DNA of 39,271 bases. Source: a virus. The notes below the pieces were generated by a model. The model was not told where the DNA came from and made no database searches. It saw nothing but the letters and a program-made list of their open reading frames with translations. Shown piece after piece: positions 737-39,271 of this stretch. A program made the position numbers and the translations under genes. Where the stretch lies: positions 1 to 39,271 of IMG/VR virus record IMGVR_UViG_3300046660_000411; one strand, 5' to 3'. Position 1 is the stretch's first letter; each line of letters begins with the position of its first letter.

Positions 737-843
737 CAGTGCGCGCCCCAATAGGCGGCGATGATGGCGGCCGCGGCGAGCGCGATCGGAATCATCGCAC
801 ACCAGACGGCAACGATCGTCAGGGTGACTGCCAGCCGGCTCAT
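736..843 (-). CDS. Small membrane protein between V and W (35 aa)
   Basis: This is a very short gene held in place by overlaps on both sides. Its ATG (843-841) overlaps the V stop as ATGA, and its TGA (738-736) overlaps the W start as TGATG. The 35-aa peptide begins MSRLAVTLTIVAVWCAMIP and is almost entirely hydrophobic, with one or two membrane segments ending in YWGAH. P2 has no equivalent between V and W. The double overlap implies translational coupling and argues that the gene is real, but the function is unknown. It could affect lysis or exclusion, or simply link V and W translation. Confidence 0.7.
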   Translation of the reverse strand: MSRLAVTLTIVAVWCAMIPIALAAAAIIAAYWGAH

Positions 844-1406
844 ACCGGCTCCTGCGTCTGTGCGCCGCCAGCCTGGACGCCAGGATGCTTGTGATGCGTC
901 AGGCTGACGCTGCCCGCCTTGACGTCGCCGTCGGCCTCGACGTTCCCGTCCGCGTGGATCTTGCCGTCGACCTGCAGATCTCCGGTAATGCGAACGTCCG
1001 CGTCGATCGTGACGCCGCCAGGGGCGACGATCGACACCGTGGCGCCATCGGGCAATACCGCCTCGAGCTTGTGCGCTTCCGGATCATAGGCAACGACAGC
1101 GCCGTCCGCGAACTTGATCAGCTCGCGCTTGCTGTCGCCGGCCGGCGGAAAGTCATCGAAATGGACGCCGCGAAGGGCAAAGGCGTGCCCGATATCGCCC
1201 TCGGGGGTGAAGACGATAACCTGTTCGCCGACTGTCGGCGGCGACCAGCTTGAGGTCGCGCCGGCAGCGCCATGTAGCCAGCGGATCGGCTGCGTCTCGA
1301 TCTCGCCGATATTGACGGTGATCTTGGCCGTCGACAGGTCGACGGTCTTCACCCTGCCGAAGCGTATCAGCTGGCCAATCAGATCATTGGGTTCGTCGTT
1401 GCGCAT
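840..1406 (-). CDS. V: Baseplate spike protein V
   Basis: This is the membrane-piercing spike at the tip of the baseplate (P2 gpV family), 188 aa. Residues about 10-90 form the OB-like N-terminal domain, with WSPPTVGEQVIVFTPEGD as the family signature. The C-terminal third has repeated D/G-rich beta-helix turns (VDGKIHADGNVEADGDVKAG) and ends with a histidine cluster, THHKHPGV, matching the HxH metal-binding apex of P2 V. It is the first gene of its late operon. The Ogr-type palindrome at 1454-1472 is centred 57 bp upstream, and no Shine-Dalgarno sequence precedes the ATG. V and W lie after the fibre genes here, whereas in P2 they precede J. Confidence 0.93.
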   Translation of the reverse strand: MRNDEPNDLIGQLIRFGRVKTVDLSTAKITVNIGEIETQPIRWLHGAAGATSSWSPPTVGEQVIVFTPEGDIGHAFALRGVHFDDFPPAGDSKRELIKFADGAVVAYDPEAHKLEAVLPDGATVSIVAPGGVTIDADVRITGDLQVDGKIHADGNVEADGDVKAGSVSLTHHKHPGVQAGGAQTQEPV

Positions 1407-1495: not shown

Positions 1496-2131
1496 ATGCA
1501 CGACGTTTTGGTCGATGTTTCCCCGATGCAGGGCGAATCTCTCAAGGCAGCGGAAAGAGCGTATCTGAAGGCCAGCCGCGCGGCATACGATCTCAGCATG
1601 GCCAAAACCCACGATGAGGCGGAGGATGCCTGGGAACGGTTCCTTGGCCAACATAGCAGGGTTTATGAAAAGCTGAGGGCAGGCGCGAAGGGCAGCAAGA
1701 AGAGCGAGCAATGGTTTTTCGGGACCGTGCAGCCGGAACGCAAGAATGACGAGCTGCTGGCCTATTTACATCACGCTCGCAACGCCGACACACACGGCTT
1801 GGCGGACGTGACGGCCAGAGACGATCCAGGCGCGCAACTTCTGTTCATCGGCCCCGATGGCCATCAGCGGGGCGGCTGGATCAAGAGTATCGCTTTTGGC
1901 CCAAATGGCGTCGAGGCAGATTGGTCTAGCGATGATCCTACGGCAAAGCTCGTTGTTCAACGAACGGCGCCGTTGGTTCTTCACGACGTAAAGGATAGCG
2001 GCGTCGTCTATAAGGTGCCCACGCAGCATCTAGGTCGACAGCTCGACCATAAGACCCCAGTCGAGGTGGCGCAGCTCGGCGCGAGTTATCTCGAGCGGAT
2101 GCTGGCGACGGCGCCGCCGGCCGGGGCATAG
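1496..2131 (+). CDS. HEPN-like protein, paralogue 1 (moron between fibre operon and V)
   Basis: This 211-aa protein has no named function. It is a clear divergent paralogue of the product at 32076-32684. Shared blocks include AWERFLGQHSRVYEKLR (here) against EWDNFLGGCSRVFEKLK, YLHHARNADTHG against YLHVARNQDHHG, and a C-terminal helix ending SYLERMLA against SYFQGLLA. R95-NADT-H100 fits the R-x4-6-H motif of HEPN RNase domains and follows a predicted helix. The gene runs opposite to the late operons around it, divergent from V and convergent with the fibre operon, as expected of a moron. I chose ATG 1496; ATG 1526 is also possible, and neither has a strong ribosome site. The HEPN assignment and a defence or toxin role are inference. 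Confidence 0.72.
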   Translation: MHDVLVDVSPMQGESLKAAERAYLKASRAAYDLSMAKTHDEAEDAWERFLGQHSRVYEKLRAGAKGSKKSEQWFFGTVQPERKNDELLAYLHHARNADTHGLADVTARDDPGAQLLFIGPDGHQRGGWIKSIAFGPNGVEADWSSDDPTAKLVVQRTAPLVLHDVKDSGVVYKVPTQHLGRQLDHKTPVEVAQLGASYLERMLATAPPAGA

Positions 2132-2141
2132 AGCGTTGGGA

Positions 2142-2333
2142 CTAGGCCTCGCCGATGATTGTTTCTTCAACGGGCGTGGGGGGTACGATCTTGATCGTTA
2201 AAACCGCTGTTTCTCCTTCGGCCGGCAGCTCGATACTGCGCATGGCGCCGGGTTCGATGCGATCGATATTCTCGCCATCGGCTCCGGTCATGGTGAGCTC
2301 AACGGGCTGACCTTGCGTTTGGATAAAAATCAT
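2142..2333 (-). CDS. Small protein downstream of the tail spike
   Basis: This is a 63-aa protein starting MIFIQTQGQPVELTMTG and rich in beta-forming and acidic residues. It follows the tail spike after 9 nt and is the last gene of the J-I-H operon. Its stop faces the stop of the HEPN-like gene 10 bp away. Its size and position suggest a fibre accessory protein, but I recognise no family. Confidence 0.6.
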   Translation of the reverse strand: MIFIQTQGQPVELTMTGADGENIDRIEPGAMRSIELPAEGETAVLTIKIVPPTPVEETIIGEA

Positions 2334-6933: not shown

Positions 6934-7589
6934 GGGGCACTCCCGTCGAGGAACCCGCCGAAATCATCGGTCAACGGTTCGCCATTCTGGTCGGTCAGCA
7001 GGTCGCCCCACGGCACGGATGCATCGGCATCGGTGTCGGAAGGGCCAAGGCGGACATAAAACGCGGTCTGGGCGGCGCTGATCGGCGCGAGCAGCACGGT
7101 CATGTCGAGTTGCTGGACCAGCGCGAAATGCGCGCTGGCCGGTTTGGTGGCGATAACGTCGGCGACGATCTGGCGCGCGAATTCCGCCGACACACGCGTT
7201 CCGCCCGCGACGCCGTCCGCGTTGATCAACGGCAAGCGGACCTCGAACGTGCGCGGAGCCATGCGCGGCGTCGTCTGGAACCACTCGACCAGTTGAATTA
7301 GATCGTCGTAGCTCTGCAGCACCTGTTCGACCGAATAGCGCGTGCCCTTGTGGCGCTGCTCCTCGATCGCCATCGCCACGGCACCGCGCTTTTCGGCGTC
7401 GCTCCAAGCCGAACTCCAGCGGTCGATCGACAGGCCCCAGGCGAGCCAGGGCAAATGCTCTGGCGGACATGTCGCGGGGTTCCACAGCGCGCCGAGGTCG
7501 AACGGAATGGAGGCGACTCGCGCGTCGATTGCGCCGGCGAAAGCCTTCTCGAGCTTGGTCGAGTTCGGGGGCAGGAGATCAGGCGCCAA
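6930..7589 (-). CDS. I: Baseplate/tail protein I
   Basis: This 219-aa P2 gpI-family protein links baseplate and tail fibres. The signature PATCPPEHLPWLAWGLSID (about residues 38-56) is followed by a region rich in aromatic and charged residues (RHKGTRYSVEQVL, WFQTTPRMAPRTFEV). It overlaps the end of J by 11 nt and the start of H by 4 nt. The C-terminus extends beyond P2 I (176 aa) with an acidic tail. Confidence 0.92.
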   Translation of the reverse strand: MAPDLLPPNSTKLEKAFAGAIDARVASIPFDLGALWNPATCPPEHLPWLAWGLSIDRWSSAWSDAEKRGAVAMAIEEQRHKGTRYSVEQVLQSYDDLIQLVEWFQTTPRMAPRTFEVRLPLINADGVAGGTRVSAEFARQIVADVIATKPASAHFALVQQLDMTVLLAPISAAQTAFYVRLGPSDTDADASVPWGDLLTDQNGEPLTDDFGGFLDGSAP

Positions 7590-8496
7590 GGCCAGCCACC
7601 GTCACGTTGGTGCCAGCGCAGTGCGTCGCCTGGGTGTCATTGACCACGACGTCCGCAGCCGGCGACAAGAGCGCGACGTTCTGCACGCCCTCGACGAAAA
7701 GCGCAGCGACGATTCCCGCGCGGGTGACGTCCATGCCGAGCTTTCCTGCCCCGGCGATCATCGCGTTGAGGCTGGCGAGCGCGTTCGCCAGGACGACGGT
7801 CGGATCGGGACCGCGGAACAACGTCAGCTGCGCTTCGATGACATAGGTGACGATCGAGGCGGACGCGACGGTGACCAGGTCGGTCAGCGGGCGCACCTTG
7901 TTGCCGAAGACGATGCCGAGGCGATCGCGCACGGCGTCGAGCTGGGCAGCTGTCGCAGTGCCGTCGCCGGTCGCCGACAGGACGGAGACGAGAACCTCGC
8001 TCGGCGCCGGGCTGGTCGCGCTGGCGTCGCGGATCGTGCCATCGGCCGAGCGCGCGTGAAAGACATAAGCGAGGTTCGGCCCGGCGACCGAGAAGCTATC
8101 CGGCGCCAACACGATGCGCTCGCGGAAAGCGGTGTCGCTCTCATACACCGGGTCGATCCCCTGGTCGGGATCGCCTTCATCGATCAGCAGGCGTGGCACG
8201 CCGACCAGCGCGCCGAGATGATCGAGGTTCGATCCGGTCGCATAGGCGACCATGACCTGGCGGGCACGATCGTTGAACGCGGCGCGGATCAGCAACTCGC
8301 GATAGGCGAGCACCTCGAGCAGTTTGACCGCGGGATCGCTTTCGACAGTCGCGTCGAATTCCGGCAGCACGTCGGGCTGCTGCAGATAGGCGATGATGCC
8401 GGCGAGCACGCTTTCGAACGAAAGCTGCTCGACGACGTCGGGTGCGGGCAGGCGCGAGAGGTCGACGGCCGAAGAGCTGGGCGAAGTGCTGGACAC
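7579..8496 (-). CDS. J: Baseplate protein J
   Basis: This is a baseplate wedge protein (gpJ/gp47 family), 305 aa from GTG 8496, matching the 302 aa of P2 J. The hallmark VDLSRLPAPDVVEQLSFE begins near residue 10, and the central block AVKLLEVLAYRELLIRAAFN is typical of the family. An ATG at 8532 would add 12 residues (MAHPALARRHAR) that do not look like J. No ribosome site precedes the GTG. The Ogr-type site at 8543-8561 is centred 56 bp upstream, so J is the first gene of its operon. Confidence 0.92.
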   Translation of the reverse strand: MSSTSPSSSAVDLSRLPAPDVVEQLSFESVLAGIIAYLQQPDVLPEFDATVESDPAVKLLEVLAYRELLIRAAFNDRARQVMVAYATGSNLDHLGALVGVPRLLIDEGDPDQGIDPVYESDTAFRERIVLAPDSFSVAGPNLAYVFHARSADGTIRDASATSPAPSEVLVSVLSATGDGTATAAQLDAVRDRLGIVFGNKVRPLTDLVTVASASIVTYVIEAQLTLFRGPDPTVVLANALASLNAMIAGAGKLGMDVTRAGIVAALFVEGVQNVALLSPAADVVVNDTQATHCAGTNVTVAGLGA

Positions 8497-8542
8497 GCGG
8501 GCATGTCGCCGCGCGAGCGCGGGGTGCGCCACGCCTCACTGC

Positions 8543-8561
8543 TGTAATGGAGCGGGTTACA
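8543..8561 (-). promoter_or_regulatory. Ogr-type late activator site upstream of J
   Basis: TGTAA-N9-TTACA, with the same flanking GC/GC as the sites at 1454 and 15503. It lies between J and the divergent membrane-protein gene at 8661. Its centre is 56 bp from the J start codon. Confidence 0.85.
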
Positions 8562-8660
8562 GCAGCACCAAGGCTAATATGTCCGGTTCGGATCAAAAGC
8601 CTCATCGACTGATTGCGTTGCTCTCGCGCATGACAGATTCAACGCGAGGGAGGGGTTTAG

Positions 8661-9221
8661 ATGACACTTGTGCTTGAGAGAGCTCGCCGGGGTATAGTTC
8701 ACCTCGCGAGCAAACTTGACGATAACGAAACTGACAATGAGAAGATGGCGAAAGCTAATTCTCTTCTTCGCACGTATGGTTGGCTTTTTTTGCCAATCGT
8801 TGCGGTTCTGTGGGCTACGTCGGCCCCTCTCCAGCGATTCGTAGATCCAGATGCGATGAGAGTAATTGGCGCAATATCAGCCGCATTGTTGATTGTTGGA
8901 TATTTTACCTTCCATGCGGAGGGATTGATTCGTCTTGCGTTGGCGTCTTTTTCGTTCTTCTTCTTCGCTATTCTTTGTCTTCTAGTGATGGGGACATTCA
9001 GTACTGCACTCGACCTTTCGCGCAAAAATGACAAGGTCTGCATGGTGTTGGAGCGCGACCTAATTGTTGCGAAGCCTAAGGTTAGTGACGCTGCTACAAA
9101 GTTTCAGGCCCTCGCATGTCGACCGCAGGGTGTTGCGCTCGAGGAGTTGGAACGATTGGCCAATGATCAACGGCGCTCAGTCCCGCGCGCTTCCTTGCCA
9201 CCAGCAGGACCTAAGCCGTAA
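8661..9221 (+). CDS. Three-helix membrane protein, moron between S and J
   Basis: This 186-aa protein has three probable membrane helices, at about residues 38-53, 67-83 and 90-112. The last contains a run of phenylalanines (FSFFFFAILCLL). A soluble C-terminal tail of about 70 residues carries two cysteines (C127 and C153). A strong ribosome site (GGGAGGGG) lies before ATG 8661. The gene is on the opposite strand to the surrounding late genes and is visibly richer in A/T, both signs of acquisition. P2 carries its moron orf30 in the comparable slot after S. I recognise no family. A superinfection-exclusion role is a guess from membrane location and position. Confidence 0.75.
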   Translation: MTLVLERARRGIVHLASKLDDNETDNEKMAKANSLLRTYGWLFLPIVAVLWATSAPLQRFVDPDAMRVIGAISAALLIVGYFTFHAEGLIRLALASFSFFFFAILCLLVMGTFSTALDLSRKNDKVCMVLERDLIVAKPKVSDAATKFQALACRPQGVALEELERLANDQRRSVPRASLPPAGPKP

Positions 9222-9242
9222 CCGCAATTCGGGGCGGGGAGA

Positions 9243-9746
9243 TCAACTGGGTACCGGGAACCGAAGTTGATCCATCGCGCGCTCGAGGATCCTGCGCCGA
9301 TCGTCCGCCGATAGGCCGAGCAGCTCGCGTTTGGGGTAGAGCGCTGTAGGCGCGTGATCCTGCCGCGAGATCTTGTCGGCCAGGCCGTCCTGGTGAACGC
9401 GGAGGATCCGCGAAGCGGCACCCGAAAAACCGACCTCGGCGCCGCCCGGAACGGCGCGCGCCGTGAGCACCCGAGCGACCTTGCGAAACATGCGCCCGCG
9501 CTTCGGGCGCTGCTTTTCGACGTTGACCAGGTTACGCAGCCTGCCGGGCTTGTGCTTCGGCTTTTCCTTGCGGGGCACCATCGCCTCGCCCTCGGGCGTG
9601 ACATTGTCGCGGATCCGCGCAAGGTTTGCCTTACGCACATCACCCGCGATGAGTTTAGCGAGACCGGCGCGCGCGCCAGGCTCGAGCCGCAGCGTCAGCG
9701 CCTCCAGACGTTCGGTGAGTTTGTCGATGTCCCCTGCGTCGCTCAT
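9243..9746 (-). CDS. S: Tail completion protein S
   Basis: This 167-aa P2 gpS-family virion morphogenesis protein is needed for tail completion and head joining. It is basic, with a central RKEKPKHKPGRLRNLVN block and a C-terminal PKRELLGLSADDRRRILE motif that is characteristic of the family. The ATG overlaps the R stop as ATGA. It is the last gene of the O-to-S operon and ends convergent with the membrane moron. Confidence 0.9.
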   Translation of the reverse strand: MSDAGDIDKLTERLEALTLRLEPGARAGLAKLIAGDVRKANLARIRDNVTPEGEAMVPRKEKPKHKPGRLRNLVNVEKQRPKRGRMFRKVARVLTARAVPGGAEVGFSGAASRILRVHQDGLADKISRQDHAPTALYPKRELLGLSADDRRRILERAMDQLRFPVPS

Positions 9747-10240
9747 GCGTCGGGCAACGGGATGACGCGTTCGTCGCCGATCCAGATCTCAGCAAGCGGG
9801 ACTTCGGCAACGGCGCCGTCGAGGAGCATGTCGTCGGGGCTCGGCTCGGGCAGGTGCTCCAAATCCCAGCCACTGCCATCCGCGCGCGGCGTGACCGCCA
9901 CGGCCTCAGTAAGGTCGAATTCGATCAGGATATCGGTCGCATCCTCGCTCAGTATGTCCGCAACGAACGCTATACGATTGTCGTCATTGGCGAATGACAG
10001 GACGAGATCGGGCTGATTGGTGCGAAGCCACATCAGCAGGGGCAACATGACGCGATCGGCGCTGCCCTGGAAAGCTTCCAGCCACAAGCGCGTCTGATAA
10101 CGATATTCCCAGGCGAGTGAGGGGCCGTAGCGCGGCACCAGGCGGCCCTTGTCGACGAACACGCCAAGGCGATCGGGCGATGCCTGCAACTCCGGCAGCG
10201 CCGCCAGCAGAGCTTGCTTGAGGCTGGCAATCTTCTTCAC
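9743..10240 (-). CDS. R: Tail completion protein R
   Basis: This 165-aa P2 gpR homologue acts with S at the head-proximal end of the tail. The start MKKIASLKQALLAALPEL followed by LAWEYRYQTRLWLEAF is typical. I chose GTG 10240 because it overlaps the stop of the lysis lipoprotein as GTGA and gives a length close to P2 R (155 aa). The C-terminus ends in an acidic domain with LAEIWIGDERVIPLP. Confidence 0.9.
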   Translation of the reverse strand: MKKIASLKQALLAALPELQASPDRLGVFVDKGRLVPRYGPSLAWEYRYQTRLWLEAFQGSADRVMLPLLMWLRTNQPDLVLSFANDDNRIAFVADILSEDATDILIEFDLTEAVAVTPRADGSGWDLEHLPEPSPDDMLLDGAVAEVPLAEIWIGDERVIPLPDA

Positions 10241-19538: not shown

Positions 19539-21152
19539 CTAGTTCTTGAAGCCTGAATTGCAGAATGGGTGCGCAGGGTTAAGGTTGCGGCTTTGATTAT
19601 CGCCACCATCCTCGCGCCGTTTGTCGTGGTCAAACGTCATTGAATTGCTGTGAACCGCGGCGTCACAGATCCGGCATCGCACGGGATTAGCCATCGCCTC
19701 GCGGATAAATGCGCTAGAGCGTGAAGCGCTGGATGCGCCGCGCTTGCTTGGCGGCAAATCTGCGGTTGGCGGCGGGATGTCGACTACCTTAAGGAAGACG
19801 TAATCGTCCTTTGCGACGAGAGTTTTCAGGATGCCATCTTCCGCGACGCCATCGTGCAGGGCCTGAAAAATCTCCCAAAGTAGATTGGCCACCCTGTCCA
19901 GACTGCGTGCGCCACTTCCGAGGCGAGTTATCGCCAGCGAGATGAAAATCTTGTTCTGAAAAAGGTAGTCCTCGAACCGCCGCCGCACAGCGGTGAAGTG
20001 CTTTTTCCTACCCTCCCGATCCAGTCGCTGGGAAAACTCCAATGATGCCAGGAACGCGCCGGGCAGAAAGTTTCCGGAGCGAGCGTAAAAATAGATCAGT
20101 GGGTGAAGGCCAAGCGACCCGCTGTCATTGGTGCTGATCAAGTCGATCCGCTTGCGAACTTTTTCCAGCATCGCAACTGTCTGCGAGCCATCCGGATCGG
20201 GCGCCAAAGCGTCGGGTATCAGCTTGGCAGTTGCGCTGCTCGCCATCGGCAGGCCGTTGCATAGGCTGACCAGATCATAAACGAACGGGAGGGCGTTGTA
20301 GCCCTGCCCCGCTATTGGCACGTCTGCCGATGTAGTCGGGTTACGATGCGGCGGTTTGTATAGGTCATCATATAGGCAGTCGCCTAAGGTCTCGATGCGC
20401 TCCCTTCGGGTATGATCGAACGCACCCCAGTATTTGTGGCCCTGCGCACCGCGCGCAATGCATCGTGCCGCAATGGCGTTCGGAGCCGTGCGACTCTTAA
20501 GGATAGTGCGCTCAACTGGATCAATTGGCTGTGCCGCTTGATTTATCTTGAAGAAAGAGTCCTCAGCCGCCTTCGGCGTGGTGGCCGTCACCCACTGGAT
20601 GAGTATCGACTCGCGGCCAATAGCGGCTAATCGTCGCGCCTTCTCGGGATCAGAAACCTCCTGCCCGACTAAGCCCGAAAATTCAGCGTAAGTACCGATT
20701 TTGCTCCTGATCATGTCGCGCGTGCGTTTTGCAATTCGTCGCTGTTCGTCGGTAATCCCAGCGCCGAATAGCCGGTTTGAGTCAGCTTGATCGCCGTAAT
20801 CGTCGCGCACCCAAGCAATCAGCGCACTGAGACGGTGCGCGCCGTCAATTACAAATATCTCGTCTCCCCGTTCCCACAGGATGACGGCGGGAATTAGATC
20901 CCGGTCCAAGAAGGATCGAATCAGATCATAGACCTTGGTCGGCGTCCAATTGGCAGTCTCTCGCTGAAAATCAGGCTTGCGAAGGCTGTTTTGGAAGAAG
21001 CCGTCTTTTTTCAGATCGGTCAGACTGATCGTCTGGCGTGGACTCCCGCCGCCCTTCACGTCATCCTTAGCTGCGAAATCGCCGCGCGGGATTAGAGCGT
21101 CAAGGTTCACAAGTCCGGCCATTTGCTCTTCCCCGTCCCGAGCCGCGGTCAT
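19539..21152 (-). CDS. DUF262-HNH nuclease, candidate anti-phage protein
   Basis: This is a 537-aa protein. The N-terminal half is DUF262-like: residues 60-66 (PDFQRET) and the ParB-like signature IDGAHRLSAL (102-111). DUF262 domains in GmrS-type proteins use this site for nucleotide-dependent control. The last 45 residues form an HNH nuclease: C493-x2-C496, D508-H509, R522-N523, C531-N532. There is no DUF1524 domain as in GmrD, so the nuclease is fused in a single chain. A strong ribosome site (GAGGAGAG) supports ATG 21152. The gene sits in the slot after Q, the position of tin/old in P2, and has lower GC than its neighbours. A defence role against modified or invading DNA is inferred from domains and location. 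Confidence 0.8.
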   Translation of the reverse strand: MTAARDGEEQMAGLVNLDALIPRGDFAAKDDVKGGGSPRQTISLTDLKKDGFFQNSLRKPDFQRETANWTPTKVYDLIRSFLDRDLIPAVILWERGDEIFVIDGAHRLSALIAWVRDDYGDQADSNRLFGAGITDEQRRIAKRTRDMIRSKIGTYAEFSGLVGQEVSDPEKARRLAAIGRESILIQWVTATTPKAAEDSFFKINQAAQPIDPVERTILKSRTAPNAIAARCIARGAQGHKYWGAFDHTRRERIETLGDCLYDDLYKPPHRNPTTSADVPIAGQGYNALPFVYDLVSLCNGLPMASSATAKLIPDALAPDPDGSQTVAMLEKVRKRIDLISTNDSGSLGLHPLIYFYARSGNFLPGAFLASLEFSQRLDREGRKKHFTAVRRRFEDYLFQNKIFISLAITRLGSGARSLDRVANLLWEIFQALHDGVAEDGILKTLVAKDDYVFLKVVDIPPPTADLPPSKRGASSASRSSAFIREAMANPVRCRICDAAVHSNSMTFDHDKRREDGGDNQSRNLNPAHPFCNSGFKN

Positions 21153-30941: not shown

Positions 30942-30961
30942 CTAGGTTTTAGGTGTTCGGT

Positions 30962-31624
30962 ATGATCCGGACAGATCGAGTTATTGAGAGGCGCGAGGCT
31001 AAGGGGATCACCCAATCGGAGCTCGCGCGTCGTGTTGGAGTTTCTGCGCAGGCTATCCAAAAGATCGAAAGCGGCGAGACTAAGCGGTCGGGCTACGTGG
31101 TGAAAATCGCCCGCGAACTAGATACGACGCCAGCGTACCTTGAGAGCGAAACCGACGATCCCAGCATGGAAGGTGTCGCGCTACCGAGCGCTTCAACGCT
31201 TGCGGAGCAACTCGACGCGGTAATGATGCGCGAGATAGAGATCGGACTATCGATGGGCGGCGGATCGCTGAACGAAGATCTGCCAGTCACGCGGATGGTT
31301 CCGATCAGCCGGTCATGGCTGCGCGGGATGACAGACGCCAATCCAGCCGACCTTATTGTGGCGCGCGGCGAGGGCGATTCTATGATGCCCACGATACTCG
31401 ACGGGGATCTGATATTCATCAACACGGCAGAGCGCACTTTGCGGCAACAGGATCGCATCTGGGCGCTCGTGTACGGCGATTTCGGCATGGTGAAGCGCGT
31501 GCGCGGACTGCCGGGTGGGAATCTGCAGATCAACAGCGACAATCCTGCCGTTTCGGCGATCGATGCCGCGCCCGATGAAGTGAACACGATCGGTCGCGTT
31601 GTGGCTATACTTCGGAAGGTATGA
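30962..31624 (+). CDS. CI-like repressor with S24 peptidase domain
   Basis: This 220-aa lysogeny repressor has an N-terminal helix-turn-helix (residues 15-42, GITQSELARRVGVSAQAIQK). The C-terminal LexA-like S24 domain carries S140 (GEGDSMMPTILDGD) and K178 (GMVKRV). Such repressors cleave themselves on RecA filaments, so the prophage is probably SOS-inducible. P2's own C repressor lacks this domain, so the switch is not P2-like. I preferred ATG 30962 (AGGTG upstream) to GTG 30953. It leads an operon with the next two genes, coupled by ATGA overlaps. Confidence 0.9.
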   Translation: MIRTDRVIERREAKGITQSELARRVGVSAQAIQKIESGETKRSGYVVKIARELDTTPAYLESETDDPSMEGVALPSASTLAEQLDAVMMREIEIGLSMGGGSLNEDLPVTRMVPISRSWLRGMTDANPADLIVARGEGDSMMPTILDGDLIFINTAERTLRQQDRIWALVYGDFGMVKRVRGLPGGNLQINSDNPAVSAIDAAPDEVNTIGRVVAILRKV

Positions 31625-32079
31625 TGGCGCGGCGCGAATTGACCGGACCCCAAAAGTCTCTAGTCGGCGGCTTGGTCGCCCTTGGCGTCGTGTTGATAAC
31701 GCTGATCATCGTTGGCAGAGCAGCGGAGCCGAGCCGGGTTCCGGGGCCGGCGCCAGAGGCTATCACTTGGCGCTCCATGAAGAGCGAAGCCGGGGCCGAT
31801 CTGACTGACGTGCATGTCGCGATTATTCCTGCAAAGCTGTCGGCCGATGAAGTCGATCGCCAAGCGCGTGCAAAGTGCGCGGGACGCCAGTTCTGCAAAG
31901 TCGTTGGTTGGGTCAACGGCACGAAGGCGGCGACCGCTTTTCCGATGACAGAGCGCGAATTTATCGCGCAGAGCTATGCTTACGACCTAAACCGGCAAAG
32001 CGGATTGGATCGCGGCCTATTCGATTGCCGGATCTGGAAGGTGGCCGCTGCGCGCTGCCTGGTCATACTAGATCAATGA
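31621..32079 (+). CDS. Membrane-anchored protein in the repressor operon
   Basis: This 152-aa protein has one N-terminal membrane helix (residues 13-32, SLVGGLVALGVVLITLIIVG). The extracytoplasmic domain carries four cysteines (86, 92, 136, 146), consistent with two disulfides in the periplasm. It overlaps the repressor stop and the next start as ATGA at both ends, so it should be made in the lysogen. That location suggests superinfection exclusion or other lysogenic conversion, but no family member with known function comes to mind. Confidence 0.75.
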   Translation: MMARRELTGPQKSLVGGLVALGVVLITLIIVGRAAEPSRVPGPAPEAITWRSMKSEAGADLTDVHVAIIPAKLSADEVDRQARAKCAGRQFCKVVGWVNGTKAATAFPMTEREFIAQSYAYDLNRQSGLDRGLFDCRIWKVAAARCLVILDQ

Positions 32080-32684
32080 TCTCGCTGACACCAACAACGG
32101 ACTGGTGGGCACCAGTTGAGGACGCTGTGGACCGGCTCCCCCGCACCGCCTGGCAACTTACCCATGCGTCGACCCGCGCAGAGGCAATGCAGGAATGGGA
32201 TAACTTTCTCGGGGGGTGCAGCCGGGTCTTTGAAAAGCTGAAGGAAGCATCGAAAGCGCACTCGTCACTGCGGTCGTGGTACGAGAGCAAGGTTGATGAA
32301 CGGGCGACTGAGCCGGTTCTGCTATATCTGCACGTAGCCCGAAATCAGGATCATCATGGTGTTGTAGACGACGCCACAATGGGACAGCCAACAAGGGCGA
32401 TCACGCCCGCCAGGCGCGTAGACTTCGGAGAAGGTGGAGCAGTTAGCTCTCCAGACCCGCTTTTCCCGCACCAGGTTCGCCAAGATTTCGAGTTGAAGCT
32501 TCGGTCCGTTTCGGATCGGAGGCACGCCTCCGTTGATCCTCCGCTATACTATCGAGGGCAATGGATTTCGGCGGCGCCAGAATGGATCGGCAGTCGACAC
32601 TATGCCCGCGATCTGATTCCCTACGCCGTCTCATACTTCCAAGGGCTGCTTGCAGAGGCCAAGGCTCAAACCATATTTCCTTGA
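32076..32684 (+). CDS. HEPN-like protein, paralogue 2 (in the repressor operon)
   Basis: This 202-aa paralogue of the 1496-2131 product has R89-NQDH-H94 (YLHVARNQDHHG) as its R-x4-H motif. FLGGCSRVFEKLKEASKAHS precedes it in line with the other copy. The C-terminal helix (YAVSYFQGLLAEA) also aligns; the middle is divergent. ATG 32076 overlaps the membrane-protein stop as ATGA, so it is coupled to CI and expected in the prophage state. HEPN domains with this motif are often RNases in abortive infection or toxin systems. Function here is inferred from motif and context only. Confidence 0.72.
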   Translation: MISLTPTTDWWAPVEDAVDRLPRTAWQLTHASTRAEAMQEWDNFLGGCSRVFEKLKEASKAHSSLRSWYESKVDERATEPVLLYLHVARNQDHHGVVDDATMGQPTRAITPARRVDFGEGGAVSSPDPLFPHQVRQDFELKLRSVSDRRHASVDPPLYYRGQWISAAPEWIGSRHYARDLIPYAVSYFQGLLAEAKAQTIFP

Positions 32685-32768
32685 AGCGCGCCTAAGTCAT
32701 CGAACCGCTAGGAACGGCGATACAGAATTTCGTCGTGGCATTGAGCCTTGTCCTCTAAAGTCGTGTCA

Positions 32769-33632
32769 ATGTTTCCATTAGTGCACCAGATACTGAAGCC
32801 TCAGGGACCGCAAACTAAGCTCCCGTCAATCGGCGAGTGCATCTACTGCCGACGAAAGCCGCCCGATGTAACGTTGACCACCGAACATATCATCGCAGAT
32901 GGCCTTGGCGGCGATCTACTATTGCCAGATGCAAGCTGCGGCGATTGCGCCCGCAAAACGGGCTGGTTCGAGCAAGATATCTTGCGCCAGCTCCTCAAGC
33001 AGCCGCGCGGCGCTCTGGGCATTCGATCACGTAAGAGGAAGCCCAAACAGACCTCAATGAAGGTGAATTTGGCAGGAGATGGGGAGCCACCGGCCTTCAC
33101 CGAAATACCATTTGTGGAAGGGATGCCAGCATTCTTGACGTCGCTGGTTGGTGACAAATCCCCCGGAATCATGCGTGGCGCGCCACGCGACGAAGAATGG
33201 CTCGGGCGCGTGCAAATTGCCACTCAAGCCGATTTCAACGAACGCGCGATGAAAACGATCGGCGCGGGCAGATTTCGATACGGCTTTAAACTTCACGCCG
33301 GCGTGTACGGGCAACTGATCGCCAAGACCTGTCACGCATTTGCTGTCGCCCACCTCGGCGTAGACGGCTTTGAGCCGTTTTTGACCGACTACATTATGGC
33401 GACCCAGCCGCGGTTCGACAGCTATCACCTGGCATCAACAACCTTCCCACCGCAAACGGAATTTCTCCACGAAATTTCGCTGCAGTCGATATTCGTGCCC
33501 GCAGTCTCGATTGTTGGGGTCGGCTCGCGTGAGGTTTACGCTGTCCGGTGGCGCATGTTTGGCCAGCTTTCTGGACCGGTTTTTACAGCAATCGTCGGAA
33601 AGCCCGTCAATCGAGCGCAGCCCGCGCTGTAG
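32769..33632 (+). CDS. HNH endonuclease-like protein
   Basis: This 287-aa protein has an N-terminal HNH-type zinc domain: C24-x2-C27 (CIYCRRK), E39-H40-I (TTEHIIADGLGGD), and C57-x2-C60 (CGDCARK). The remaining 220 residues have no recognised domain. Start alternatives are TTG 32748 and ATG 32769, and neither has a clear ribosome site. The gene follows the HEPN-like gene after 84 bp and converges on D. It could be a moron nuclease or belong to the same conversion module. Confidence 0.75.
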   Translation: MFPLVHQILKPQGPQTKLPSIGECIYCRRKPPDVTLTTEHIIADGLGGDLLLPDASCGDCARKTGWFEQDILRQLLKQPRGALGIRSRKRKPKQTSMKVNLAGDGEPPAFTEIPFVEGMPAFLTSLVGDKSPGIMRGAPRDEEWLGRVQIATQADFNERAMKTIGAGRFRYGFKLHAGVYGQLIAKTCHAFAVAHLGVDGFEPFLTDYIMATQPRFDSYHLASTTFPPQTEFLHEISLQSIFVPAVSIVGVGSREVYAVRWRMFGQLSGPVFTAIVGKPVNRAQPAL

Positions 33633-33680: not shown

Positions 33681-34724
33681 CTAAGACGCCCTCGTTTCGA
33701 GCTTCACAGTTGTCTTGAGGCCGCCATTGCTGTCGATCGTGTGGCGCAGCTCGGAAATAACCCAGGACAGCGCGTCGATCGTCGCTTTGAAGCCTGACAG
33801 CGTTGCCGGCCGCTCGGGATAGAGGTCCGGCCGGCCGAGAGCGAGATTGAAGTCGAAACTCGCCGCGGCGCGCCCGGCTCGGCTCGCTTCGGACTTGGCG
33901 GCGCGCTTGGCGTCTTCCTTGTTGGCATAGACCCTACGGAGCATGCGAGGTTTGCCGCTGCCGCCTTTGCCGGTGCCGGCGACCGATACCGTCTCGCGCT
34001 TCCCCTTGTCGACGTCGTGATAGCGCGCCTCGACGCCGGCGCCGGCCGAGCGATCGACTTTGGTATAGGCGCCGCCGCTGCCCATAGAAGCTTTGATGGT
34101 GACCGCAGGGAGCGCCTTGCCGCTCGACGTCGCGCCCTTGCCGATCGGCGACAGGATCAGGTTGCCGTCCTTTACCGTCGCGACGGCGTCGTGTTCGCGG
34201 CCCAGCTGCCGCAAGAGGGCCATGTCCGACCGCTGGTGCTGTTCGAGCGCGGGTACCGGGATCGAGGCCAGTTCAGACGCTACGCGCGCCTGCAGCCCGT
34301 TGGCTGACGCCACCTTCTTGGCGATGTCGCCCAGCGTCGTTCCCACGTAGCTCTTTTCCTTGCGGGCGCGGAAACCAGCGGTCAGGTCGGCCGAACGGGC
34401 GCGGACGGTGATTTGCGCTGGCGGCCCCTGATTCCACGATGCCTCGTCAACCTTGAACGTGCCCTTGTCGACAAGGCCGGGCGTGACGTCGGCGCCCTGT
34501 TTCCACCCAAGCTTCAGGTGGATCATCCCGCCCTCTGCTGGAATCGCGAGCTTGCCATCGCCGTCCGACAACACCAGCTCGAGATCGTCGGCTTCCTCGC
34601 CGCGCTTTTCGGTGAGGGTCAGACTGACCAGGCGCGGGCGGGCTTTGTCGGTGAAGTCGACGCCGTCCATCTGCAGCTGATAGTCGGCAATATTGGAATG
34701 GCGCTCGGCCGAGCTCTGCGCCAT
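33681..34724 (-). CDS. D: Tail protein D (baseplate hub)
   Basis: This is a 347-aa P2 gpD-family protein (late control D), forming the hub between tail tube and spike. Family segments include IADYQLQMDGVDFTDKARPR, LGWKQGADVTPGLVDKGTF and SDMALLRQLGREHDAVATV. ATG 34724 overlaps the U stop as TGATG; GTG 34727 is the alternative. It is the last gene of the third late operon and converges on the HNH gene. A short CCCG/CGGG hairpin followed by TTT lies in the 48-bp gap. Confidence 0.93.
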   Translation of the reverse strand: MAQSSAERHSNIADYQLQMDGVDFTDKARPRLVSLTLTEKRGEEADDLELVLSDGDGKLAIPAEGGMIHLKLGWKQGADVTPGLVDKGTFKVDEASWNQGPPAQITVRARSADLTAGFRARKEKSYVGTTLGDIAKKVASANGLQARVASELASIPVPALEQHQRSDMALLRQLGREHDAVATVKDGNLILSPIGKGATSSGKALPAVTIKASMGSGGAYTKVDRSAGAGVEARYHDVDKGKRETVSVAGTGKGGSGKPRMLRRVYANKEDAKRAAKSEASRAGRAAASFDFNLALGRPDLYPERPATLSGFKATIDALSWVISELRHTIDSNGGLKTTVKLETRAS

Positions 34725-35104
34725 CACGCCACCCGGAGCAGATCGAGCGTGAAATCGACGCGCTGCGGGACGCCGTCGATCATCAGGTCGCTGCCCTGCG
34801 TATCGAGGCCGGTCAGCACGAAGCTGCCTTCGACGCGGCCGTCGCCGCGCACGAATTGATAGGTTTCGCCGGTATCGCCCATCGCGACCAGGGTATCGAG
34901 CGCCGTGAAGCTGCCGTGGACAAAGGGAACGACCGTGCCGCCCAGGCTAATCGTGTCGTCATCGGGGCCGACGAACTGGACGGCGTCGCGCACGCCGATG
35001 CGCGGATCCTTGGCGTGTCGCCACCCCATGCGGCGCCGATAGTCGTTGTAGAGCAGCGCATCGAGTTGAAAACAGAACAGGCCGAGGGCGGCGAGGCGGC
35101 TCAT
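34724..35104 (-). CDS. U: Tail protein U
   Basis: This 126-aa tail terminator of the P2 gpU family begins MSRLAALGLFCFQLDALLYN and contains YRRRMGWRHAKDPRIGVRDA. It overlaps T and D by 4-5 nt. P2 U is 159 aa; the shorter length still covers the domain. Confidence 0.92.
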   Translation of the reverse strand: MSRLAALGLFCFQLDALLYNDYRRRMGWRHAKDPRIGVRDAVQFVGPDDDTISLGGTVVPFVHGSFTALDTLVAMGDTGETYQFVRGDGRVEGSFVLTGLDTQGSDLMIDGVPQRVDFTLDLLRVA

Positions 35105-38256: not shown

Positions 38257-39271
38257 TCAGCCGGTGATGGTGTCGGACAACTGGTCACCCAGCGTGTCGT
38301 AATAGGCGCTGGTGATGCGCAGCCGGTTGATGATGCCCTCGGCCGGCGCGACGGCCGTGTAATCGAGGTCAAGGGTCAGACGGCCTGCCGCGAGGGCGTT
38401 GCCGGGGTTGGCGCTCTTGTCGAACCAGCAGCGCCCGCCGATCAGCTCGCCCGCGGTCACCTTGCGACGAAGATAGGCGTTGCCCTCTTCCTCGAGGTTC
38501 CGCACCAGGCCAACCGTCATCGGCTGGTCGATATAGGGCGCCTCGATCGCGGCCAGGTCATCCTGAATGGCCTGGGCGGTACGAGTCGCGCTCTCGAACG
38601 TGAACAGCGGCTCATCGCTGGTCGTGTGGTTGCCCCAGAAGCGATAGCCGTTCATCCGCACGATCGTGGTGATGTGCGCCGCGTTGAGCAGGCCCGCGTC
38701 GGTCGACGGGTCGCGGATGTCGAAGCTGACGTCCTTGCTGACGCCAGTAACGCCGGCGATCGCCACGTTGGAGATCGTCTTGTGCCAGCCGACGCGTTCG
38801 TCCAGCGCGGCGCGCAAGCCCAGCGCGATCGCGACGGCATGGCCATTCCATCCGGTCGTTTCCGGCCAGATCGGCATGAGTTCGCGGTCGCCGAACGCCT
38901 CCACATAGGTGATCGCGTCCGCCAGCGTCGCCGCGATCGCCCCGTCCGCTGCAGCTGGGCGGCAAGCCGCGTAAACGAACCCGCGCAGGCGCTTGGCAAC
39001 GATGACCAGCGCCTCGACAACGTCCAGCGTGTCGAGCCCAGGCGCGCCCAGGATGCGCGGACGCACGCCAAGCTGGCCCTCGGCCGCCAGAAAAAGCTGG
39101 ATCCCGGCAATGACATTGGTTTCGGTCGCGGCAGCGTCCGCACTTTCATCGACACGCACGACGACGACGATTGGCGAGCCCTGATCGGCAATAGCGCTCA
39201 GCGCCTTGGCGAGCGTGCCGCCCGTGCCCGCCCTGTCGACCGCGCTGCGGACGTCAGTGACCAGCGTGCGC
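38257..39271 (-). CDS. FI: Tail sheath protein FI, C-terminal part (continues at 1-355)
   Basis: This is the 3' part of the sheath gene; the start is at 355-353 on the other side of the circle. Segments typical of P2 FI include PRILGAPGLDTLDVVEALVI, VYAACRPAAADG, NGYRFWGNHTTSDEPLFTF and RTAQAIQDDLAAIEAPY. The stop TGA is at 38259-38257. The last 194 bases duplicate 1-194 with one base change that gives Ser in place of Gly at codon 97. Confidence 0.93.
   Translation of the reverse strand, partial: RTLVTDVRSAVDRAGTGGTLAKALSAIADQGSPIVVVVRVDESADAAATETNVIAGIQLFLAAEGQLGVRPRILGAPGLDTLDVVEALVIVAKRLRGFVYAACRPAAADGAIAATLADAITYVEAFGDRELMPIWPETTGWNGHAVAIALGLRAALDERVGWHKTISNVAIAGVTGVSKDVSFDIRDPSTDAGLLNAAHITTIVRMNGYRFWGNHTTSDEPLFTFESATRTAQAIQDDLAAIEAPYIDQPMTVGLVRNLEEEGNAYLRRKVTAGELIGGRCWFDKSANPGNALAAGRLTLDLDYTAVAPAEGIINRLRITSAYYDTLGDQLSDTITG
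39078..39271. repeat. Terminal direct repeat, right copy
   Basis: This repeats 1-194 with T at 39144 where the first copy has C at 67. It is the overlap that closes the genome into a circle of 39,077 bp. Confidence 0.93.

Follow-up and report, generated by a model that had tools for sequence, protein, structure and literature searches.

The window, by which we mean the whole 39,271-nucleotide stretch of DNA that was analysed (IMGVR_UViG_3300046660_000411), encodes two divergent proteins, copy 1 and copy 2, that share an R-x4-H motif and a predicted helical core. Both genes probably encode HEPN-type RNases that serve as prophage-encoded abortive-infection effectors made in the lysogen, comparable to Tha; we infer their RNase activity and defence role, as well as the trigger, the inhibition and the silencing of the copies.

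Two related genes in a P2-like phage

The window is a P2-like temperate phage in which tail, tape measure, sheath, baseplate, major head, integrase and CI-like repressor genes were recognised; the gene names D, V and tail fibre, and the word structural where it is applied to neighbour genes that have no computed match, are assigned by eye or from recall. A 194-base repeat is present at the two ends (1-194 vs 39078-39271, 99.5% identity) and the reading frame of the sheath gene remains open at each of them, so that the record looks complete and circularly joined. At 19539-21152 (-) a 537 aa protein with a GmrSD_N domain (PF03235) and an HNH match below threshold is encoded, which likely gives this phage a further cargo gene for restriction or defence.

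Copy 1 and its surroundings comprise the following features.

840-1406 (-), baseplate assembly gene, left bound of copy 1 (phrog_9992, E 7.9e-24), which we take to be P2 gpV-like
1496-2131 (+), copy 1 (P0001), 211 aa as annotated, with the open reading frame present at these coordinates
1778-1795 (+), R95-N-A-D-T-H100 motif of copy 1
2142-2333 (-), 63 aa ORF running towards copy 1, with 10 bases separating their stop codons
2343-4964 (-), 873 aa gene, right bound of copy 1, coming after tail fibre and fibre-assembly genes

Those of copy 2 are the following.

30953-31624 (+), CI-like repressor, first gene of the copy 2 operon (phrog_4, E 1.1e-42)
31621-32079 (+), 152 aa gene that follows the repressor and precedes copy 2, with an ATGA overlap with both
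32076-32684 (+), copy 2 (P0002), 202 aa, its start overlapping the preceding stop (ATGA)
32340-32357 (+), R89-N-Q-D-H-H94 motif of copy 2
32748-33632 (+), gene for an HNH_5 endonuclease-like protein, next in line after copy 2 (PF14279, 28.9 bits, cut-off 27.5)
33681-34727 (-), tail gene bounding the copy 2 cargo interval (phrog_52, E 6.1e-112), presumably P2 gpD-like

The start of copy 1 is uncertain, since the other family members start at its Met11 (base 1526) in the family alignment; further upstream, its open frame continues as far as an ATG at 1430.

The original prediction that the two products are paralogues with a shared order of motifs is borne out. In blastp, 85 aa of the two proteins align with 41% identity (E 3e-17); each has a match to phrog_23516 (E 1.7e-20 and 4.8e-9), and both contain, in this order, FLGxxSRVxEKL, YLHxARNxDxHG and an SY in the last helix. 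Neither copy has a Pfam match, and PHROG 23516, which names the family of both window proteins and explains no function, is itself listed as of unknown function, in agreement with the earlier statement that no function had been described for the family. The similarity of the pair lies mostly in the second helix and the motif helix, with identities of 11/56 in the insert that follows the motif and 5/19 in the last helix. In the family tree both copies are on long, unsupported branches, and constraining them together gives a p-AU of 0.527, by which their pairing is neither rejected nor shown; a recent duplication of copies 1 and 2 is not demonstrable.

Family members and conserved residues

Relatives were first found with a degenerate pattern for YLHxARNxDxHG and then with an alignment; pattern scans with the single window proteins or with their pair alignment returned no relative. 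Both window proteins and two relatives gave no match by tblastn in 50,697 GenBank phage records, nor did copy 1 when searched in plasmids, and the L011 relative as query recovered three plasmid members, two of them from Acinetobacter. Relatives are found at 13 genome loci, from alphaproteobacteria or 'Proteobacteria'. They are also encoded on three viral contigs, and the protein of one of these (L004/L018) is identical to that of L005; four more members, two clear and two remote, came from the sampled genomes. The family is rare, with matches in 2 of 385 genomes of the class, namely the seed and one remote member, and in 4 of 398 genomes of the phylum, the seed genome counted. In L030, a remote member (E 3e-6), the family domain is C-terminal, after a long extra N-terminal stretch in an open frame.

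As had been claimed, the R-N-x-x-x-H core of the two copies fits the R-x4-6-H motif of HEPN RNases, and R and H of R-x4-H are kept in all 24 members compared (21 aligned and three from plasmids; the incomplete L185 member was excluded, its frame missing the half of the protein that would contain the motif). The residue after R is N in 18, D in five and H in one of these 24. Only W73, L88, R95, H100 and P175 are invariant among the 21 aligned members, and a PxxHLG segment is also conserved in the family. Because W73, L88 and P175 are no less invariant than R95 and H100, this conservation does not prove an active site. Many, not all, HEPN families carry Ex3[KR] in helix 2; in the present family position 61 is E or D in 18/21 and position 65 is K in 19/21, giving an Ex3K in helix 2, and the window copies are without its E, with R and K at position 61. 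Mean pairwise identity is 19.5% in the insert, the least conserved part, vs 59.9% in the motif helix, and such low conservation would suit a sensor but equally a relaxed loop region.

Predicted fold

AlphaFold models were built from a 17-row alignment (mean pLDDT of 87.5 for copy 1 and 81.8 for copy 2, in which residues 103-126 are under 50). The model of copy 1 has helices at residues 13-35, 39-64, 68-84 and 86-96, a last helix at 188-205 and, between the motif helix and the last helix, a beta-rich insert at about 112-172. Helix 86-96, which is preceded by an extra helix, ends at R95, and H100 is located in the following loop. In HEPN proteins, according to the accessible part of the published description (PMC3710099), the motif is at the end of core helix 3, an extra element is frequent between core helices 2 and 3, a polar residue, mostly N, D or H, directly follows the R, and Csx1 has a beta-hairpin after the motif. 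The predicted layout of copy 1 matches that description as far as this portion of the source extends. The structure prediction that had been proposed as a check on the HEPN-like assignment gave a helical-bundle core, and R and H proved conserved, so that neither check refuted the assignment.

A Foldseek search against the PDB returned no match at E <= 0.001. In the VIA comparison, the HEPN chains, among which we count 7bxo_G, 6m6u_D and 1wty, have Z of 6.7-7.4, below unrelated four-helix bundles at up to 8.8; as the unrelated bundles outscore them, HEPN cannot be told from a generic four-helix bundle by this search, and the missing HEPN top match is not taken as disproof. The viral fold library gave nothing at E <= 0.001 and one unnamed protein at E 0.018. 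With hhalign, the family scored 0.2-0.4% against samples of RiboL-PSP, HepT-like and DUF4145, which is no signal given that its controls (reversed, shuffled and FliS) reached 0.0-0.5%, as high as the HEPN families; the same three HEPN families score each other at 3-39%. A profile search of PDB sequences returned only moesin (E 0.32-0.33), and PADLOC gave no recurrent match, Cas11b (E 0.001) and PycC (0.043) each being matched by one of 17 members. WD40 matches of copy 1 in the PDB were rejected, as no stretch passes on its own.

As the fold search does not favour HEPN over other bundles and the profile comparison with three HEPN families was negative, the term HEPN rests on the motif grammar, the predicted topology and the shared partner gene described below, and we do not claim membership as proven from sequence. 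The HEPN-like assignment of the original prediction therefore stands with regard to the R-x4-H, the helical core and the position of the motif at a helix end, but a profile match to the three HEPN families compared is absent and the fold search is unspecific. It can be argued instead that the family is a helical non-HEPN protein in which R, H, W and K bind a ligand or partner, acting as a regulator or a superinfection-exclusion factor; this would agree with the negative profile-profile comparison, with a fold search dominated by unrelated bundles, and with the invariance of W73, L88 and P175 alongside the conserved PxxHLG segment. We find such a protein decidedly unlikely, given the joint occurrence of R-x4-H, of N, D or H after the R and of the helix-end placement, and a partner gene that is common to other R[ND]xxxH proteins.

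Genomic positions of the two copies and of their relatives

Copy 1 is flanked on one side by the V-like gene and on the other by the 873 aa gene and the 63 aa ORF that follows it, and is encoded on the strand opposite to theirs. Being antisense to the surrounding late genes, it is no ordinary member of the late operon. The 873 aa gene, which has no Pfam or PHROG match, is read as a tail fibre by position, and the 63 aa ORF has no homologue among the fetched loci. None of the three V-bearing relatives found carries a family gene. No promoter or terminator was found at copy 1, a result that is uninformative.

Copy 2 is the third gene counting the repressor, and two ATGA overlaps join the repressor, the 152 aa gene (no PHROG match, no Pfam family over the cut-off) and copy 2. 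The HNH_5-like gene could belong to the same cargo. In another phage (L020), a CI-like repressor and two small ORFs precede the family gene on one strand. The contents of the interval from D to the repressor vary among the 14 of 34 fetched relatives that were inspected; three of six ORFs from this interval were above the Pfam cut-off, namely an OLD-like AAA/TOPRIM protein (L141), a trypsin-like peptidase (L151) and a DUF2806 protein (L157). Similar-looking unannotated ORFs of about 310 aa are found in this cargo slot in L145 (7640-8590, -) and L146 (7646-8575, -), the former having no Pfam match.

Among the relatives, L005 has in its region 7366-9890 the family gene inserted antisense between homologues of Rcc01687 (E 1.2e-90) and Rcc01688 (E 5.6e-11), which are the major capsid protein and the adaptor, both of the gene-transfer-agent type, of a solved phage-like particle. 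The L009 gene is likewise antisense, beside a tape measure gene, and that of L007 is just upstream of a terminase gene. tRNA genes occur within about 1 kb of the family gene in L006, L012, L014 and L017, and L030 is near a tRNA-Pro; L014 adjoins an integrase and L015 an Mrr_cat gene. The plasmid members are near TIR or BrnT/BrnA genes, the one in L175 following TIR-domain genes, and the chromosomal members L006, L011, L012 and L013 are, by eye, among housekeeping genes. No neighbour family is shared by all 17 loci. The members are distributed as mobile cargo is, and the suggestion that the two genes occupy moron positions is supported both by the cargo positions of the two copies and by these settings of their relatives.

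The original prediction further placed copy 1 in the late region and copy 2 with the repressor, and took them to act probably in different phases or on different targets. The placement is correct in that copy 1 is among late genes and copy 2 is coupled to the repressor, but copy 1 is antisense to those late genes. For copy 1 to act late in the phage's own lytic cycle and copy 2 in lysogeny is thus suggested by the location of copy 1 among late genes and opposed by its strand, as well as by the family genes of L005 and L009, which are likewise antisense to their structural neighbours; we regard this division as highly improbable. Expression in the lysogen would fit both copies better, and the assignment to different phases is not upheld.

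A small convergent partner gene

In five of the 15 non-window alignment loci, a gene of 55-75 aa is arranged tail-to-tail with the family gene and overlaps 44-72 bases of its 3' end.

L008, 5566-5784 (-), small partner ORF
L009, 8554-8763 (-), small partner ORF
L010, 2616-3131 (-), small partner ORF
L019, 832-1056 (-), small partner ORF
L020, 8547-8981 (-), small partner ORF

A model built on the remaining four picked up the L008 partner (E 2e-14), and the core of the small protein reads EITPEMIxAG...LVxxVYxAM. The partner model has no match anywhere in the window, including the 63 aa ORF facing copy 1, and the gene is absent at 10 of the 15 other loci, at L027-L030 and at all three plasmid members. 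The L020 small protein had no match in GenBank phages and none of four small proteins matched PHROG below E 0.1; among the literature matches listed, which mostly leave out subscription papers, there was no paper on the family or on a HEPN gene with a convergent small partner.

Searching with the partner alone gave, in a first sample, 13 new loci (the incomplete family gene L185 and 12 others) after removal of L180, a chance match in a long frame, and L184, the same DNA as L020. A tail-to-tail ORF of at least 140 aa is present at nine of the 12, all nine with R[ND]xxxH, compared with 25/201 among the remaining ORFs of this length in 18 loci; L181, L188 and L190 have no such tail-to-tail ORF. 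A second sample gave 29 rows, of which seven were places already known, seven weaker ones (E 3.6e-4 to 6.5e-3) were left out, and 15 were examined. RNxxxH is found at the junction in 10 of these 15 loci, RVNLVH in one and no such motif in four, with a background of 16/84 ORFs (the floor was 90 aa for junction ORFs vs 140 aa for controls, and contig ends truncate L206 and L199). The Fisher values of 2.9e-8 and 4e-4 overstate the independence of the loci because the first-sample junction proteins are partly related, and the motif counts refer to ORFs, not verified proteins, from loci of which the related ones are not independent. The loci from these searches are as follows.

Further loci with the partner against a HEPN-like gene: L176-L179, L182, L183, L185-L187, L189, L195-L198, L200, L202-L204, L206, L215, L219
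Partner without a HEPN-like mate: L181, L188, L190, L201, L205, L207; L199 is cut by the contig end

The profile of the nine junction proteins scored 14% against HepT-like and 6.8% against HEPN_RiboL-PSP, values that fall in the range where HEPN families match each other, with 0.1% for FliS and only 0.8% for DUF4145; the window family reaches only 0.2-0.3% against the same profile. Individual matches are all weak (L186 to MtlR, Abi_2 and DUF4145, under the cut-offs; L177 to HEPN_Apea). The motif at the junctions and the scores of the junction profile together indicate that the small protein goes with HEPN-like proteins generally and that the window family shares this partner. In the overlap of eight long-overlap loci, both frames beat all 200 shuffles in conservation, the small frame by more (mean of 30.6 vs 18.9 shuffled) than the other (25.9 vs 21.3).

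Tentatively, and as a reading that could well prove correct, we propose that the small protein is a shared HEPN RNase inhibitor swapped among several HEPN families of alphaproteobacteria and phages, head-on with a 3' overlap in every pair found. Each pair would then be a toxin-inhibitor module with built-in antisense control, and the window family a branch in which the phage copies can do without the inhibitor, being self-protected by genomic position.

A similar phrase, SSGF-FLG, is found in L177, L179 and L219 in the open frame just before the likely start Met of the HEPN-like gene, which suggests a conserved upstream DNA element.

Proposed role

Each copy would be a single-domain HEPN-type RNase with a beta-rich insert between the R-x4-H core helix and the last core helix, carried as prophage cargo and expressed from the lysogen. 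When a competing phage infects, a trigger would switch the protein on, RNA would be cut and growth would stop (abortive infection). The variable insert is the likeliest candidate for a sensor or regulatory surface, in which case the two copies may answer to different triggers. The tail-to-tail small protein of several relatives is probably an inhibitor. The window copies, without the small gene, may be silenced by position on induction of their own phage, copy 2 as the repressor operon stops and copy 1 by antisense late transcription.

The family could alternatively function as a maintenance toxin-antitoxin module in which HEPN-fold toxins, with the small protein as antitoxin, stabilise prophages and plasmids. 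The small convergent overlapping gene is indeed found with family members and with other R[ND]xxxH proteins, and members are present on small mobilizable Acinetobacter plasmids, one of them between BrnT/BrnA modules. However, the small gene is absent at both window copies, at the three plasmid members and at 10/15 other loci, and the usual antitoxin is co-transcribed with its toxin, unlike this head-on gene; we consider such a module an unlikely explanation.

The abortive-infection role, if true, would provide a function for an unnamed phage protein family. The shared head-on partner would become a handle on many uncharacterised HEPN-like genes as well as a candidate inhibitor, and the arrangement would bear on how temperate phages carry killer RNases without harm to their own lytic cycle.

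Comparison with known systems

HepT (HEPN-MNT; PF01934; PDB 8xdj, 8yuf, 7ae6) has R-x4-H on a helical bundle, like copy 1, and gives Z of 6.9-7.4 against copy 1 in VIA-align, where we take 6m6u_D to be HepT. The window family differs in its large beta insert after the motif and in having no profile-profile signal to HepT-like, and no MNT nucleotidyltransferase was noticed by eye adjacent to the family genes in the neighbourhood listings.

AbiF (Abi_2) of Clostridioides difficile prophages, which is paired with the RNA antitoxin RCd22, is described in the accessible part of its report as a toxic HEPN protein for which R and H are needed (PMC12373285); to that extent it resembles the window copies as a prophage-borne R-x4-H protein. 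None of 17 family members matches Abi_2. An AbiF-type RNA antitoxin was considered and rejected, as tRNA was the only RNA family that Rfam searches at gathering scores gave for the window and six loci, and no upstream element is shared among 17 family genes.

The old/tin region of P2, between gpA and gpQ, is an anti-phage cargo hotspot of P2-like phages according to the portion of the source available (PMC9122126). The present slots are likewise P2-like cargo slots, and the D-to-repressor slot of L141 contains an OLD-like gene. Their place, as far as that portion of the source describes old/tin, is another one, here between the repressor and D and in the interval left of the 873 aa gene, beside V.

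The accessible text on Tha of S. aureus prophages describes a HEPN RNase with an RNxxxH motif (PMC11087260). Its gene is transcribed from the cI promoter, tail proteins activate the enzyme, and its inhibitor is encoded by ith, a small antisense gene that overlaps tha. On that partial text, Tha has 301 aa with a separate N-terminal region and a C-terminal HEPN, whereas the proteins of the window family are some 200 aa long and carry their insert within the helical core; and the window copies, unlike tha with its ith, have no match to the small gene of the relatives. In layout, compared by arrangement alone, ith closely resembles the small convergent gene of the relatives, and the position of copy 2 is a similarly close parallel to that of tha. 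Like the window copies, Tha is a prophage-encoded RNxxxH protein, and copy 2 is placed as tha is on the cI promoter, with a gene order that by itself would fit cI co-transcription, copy 1 being located elsewhere.
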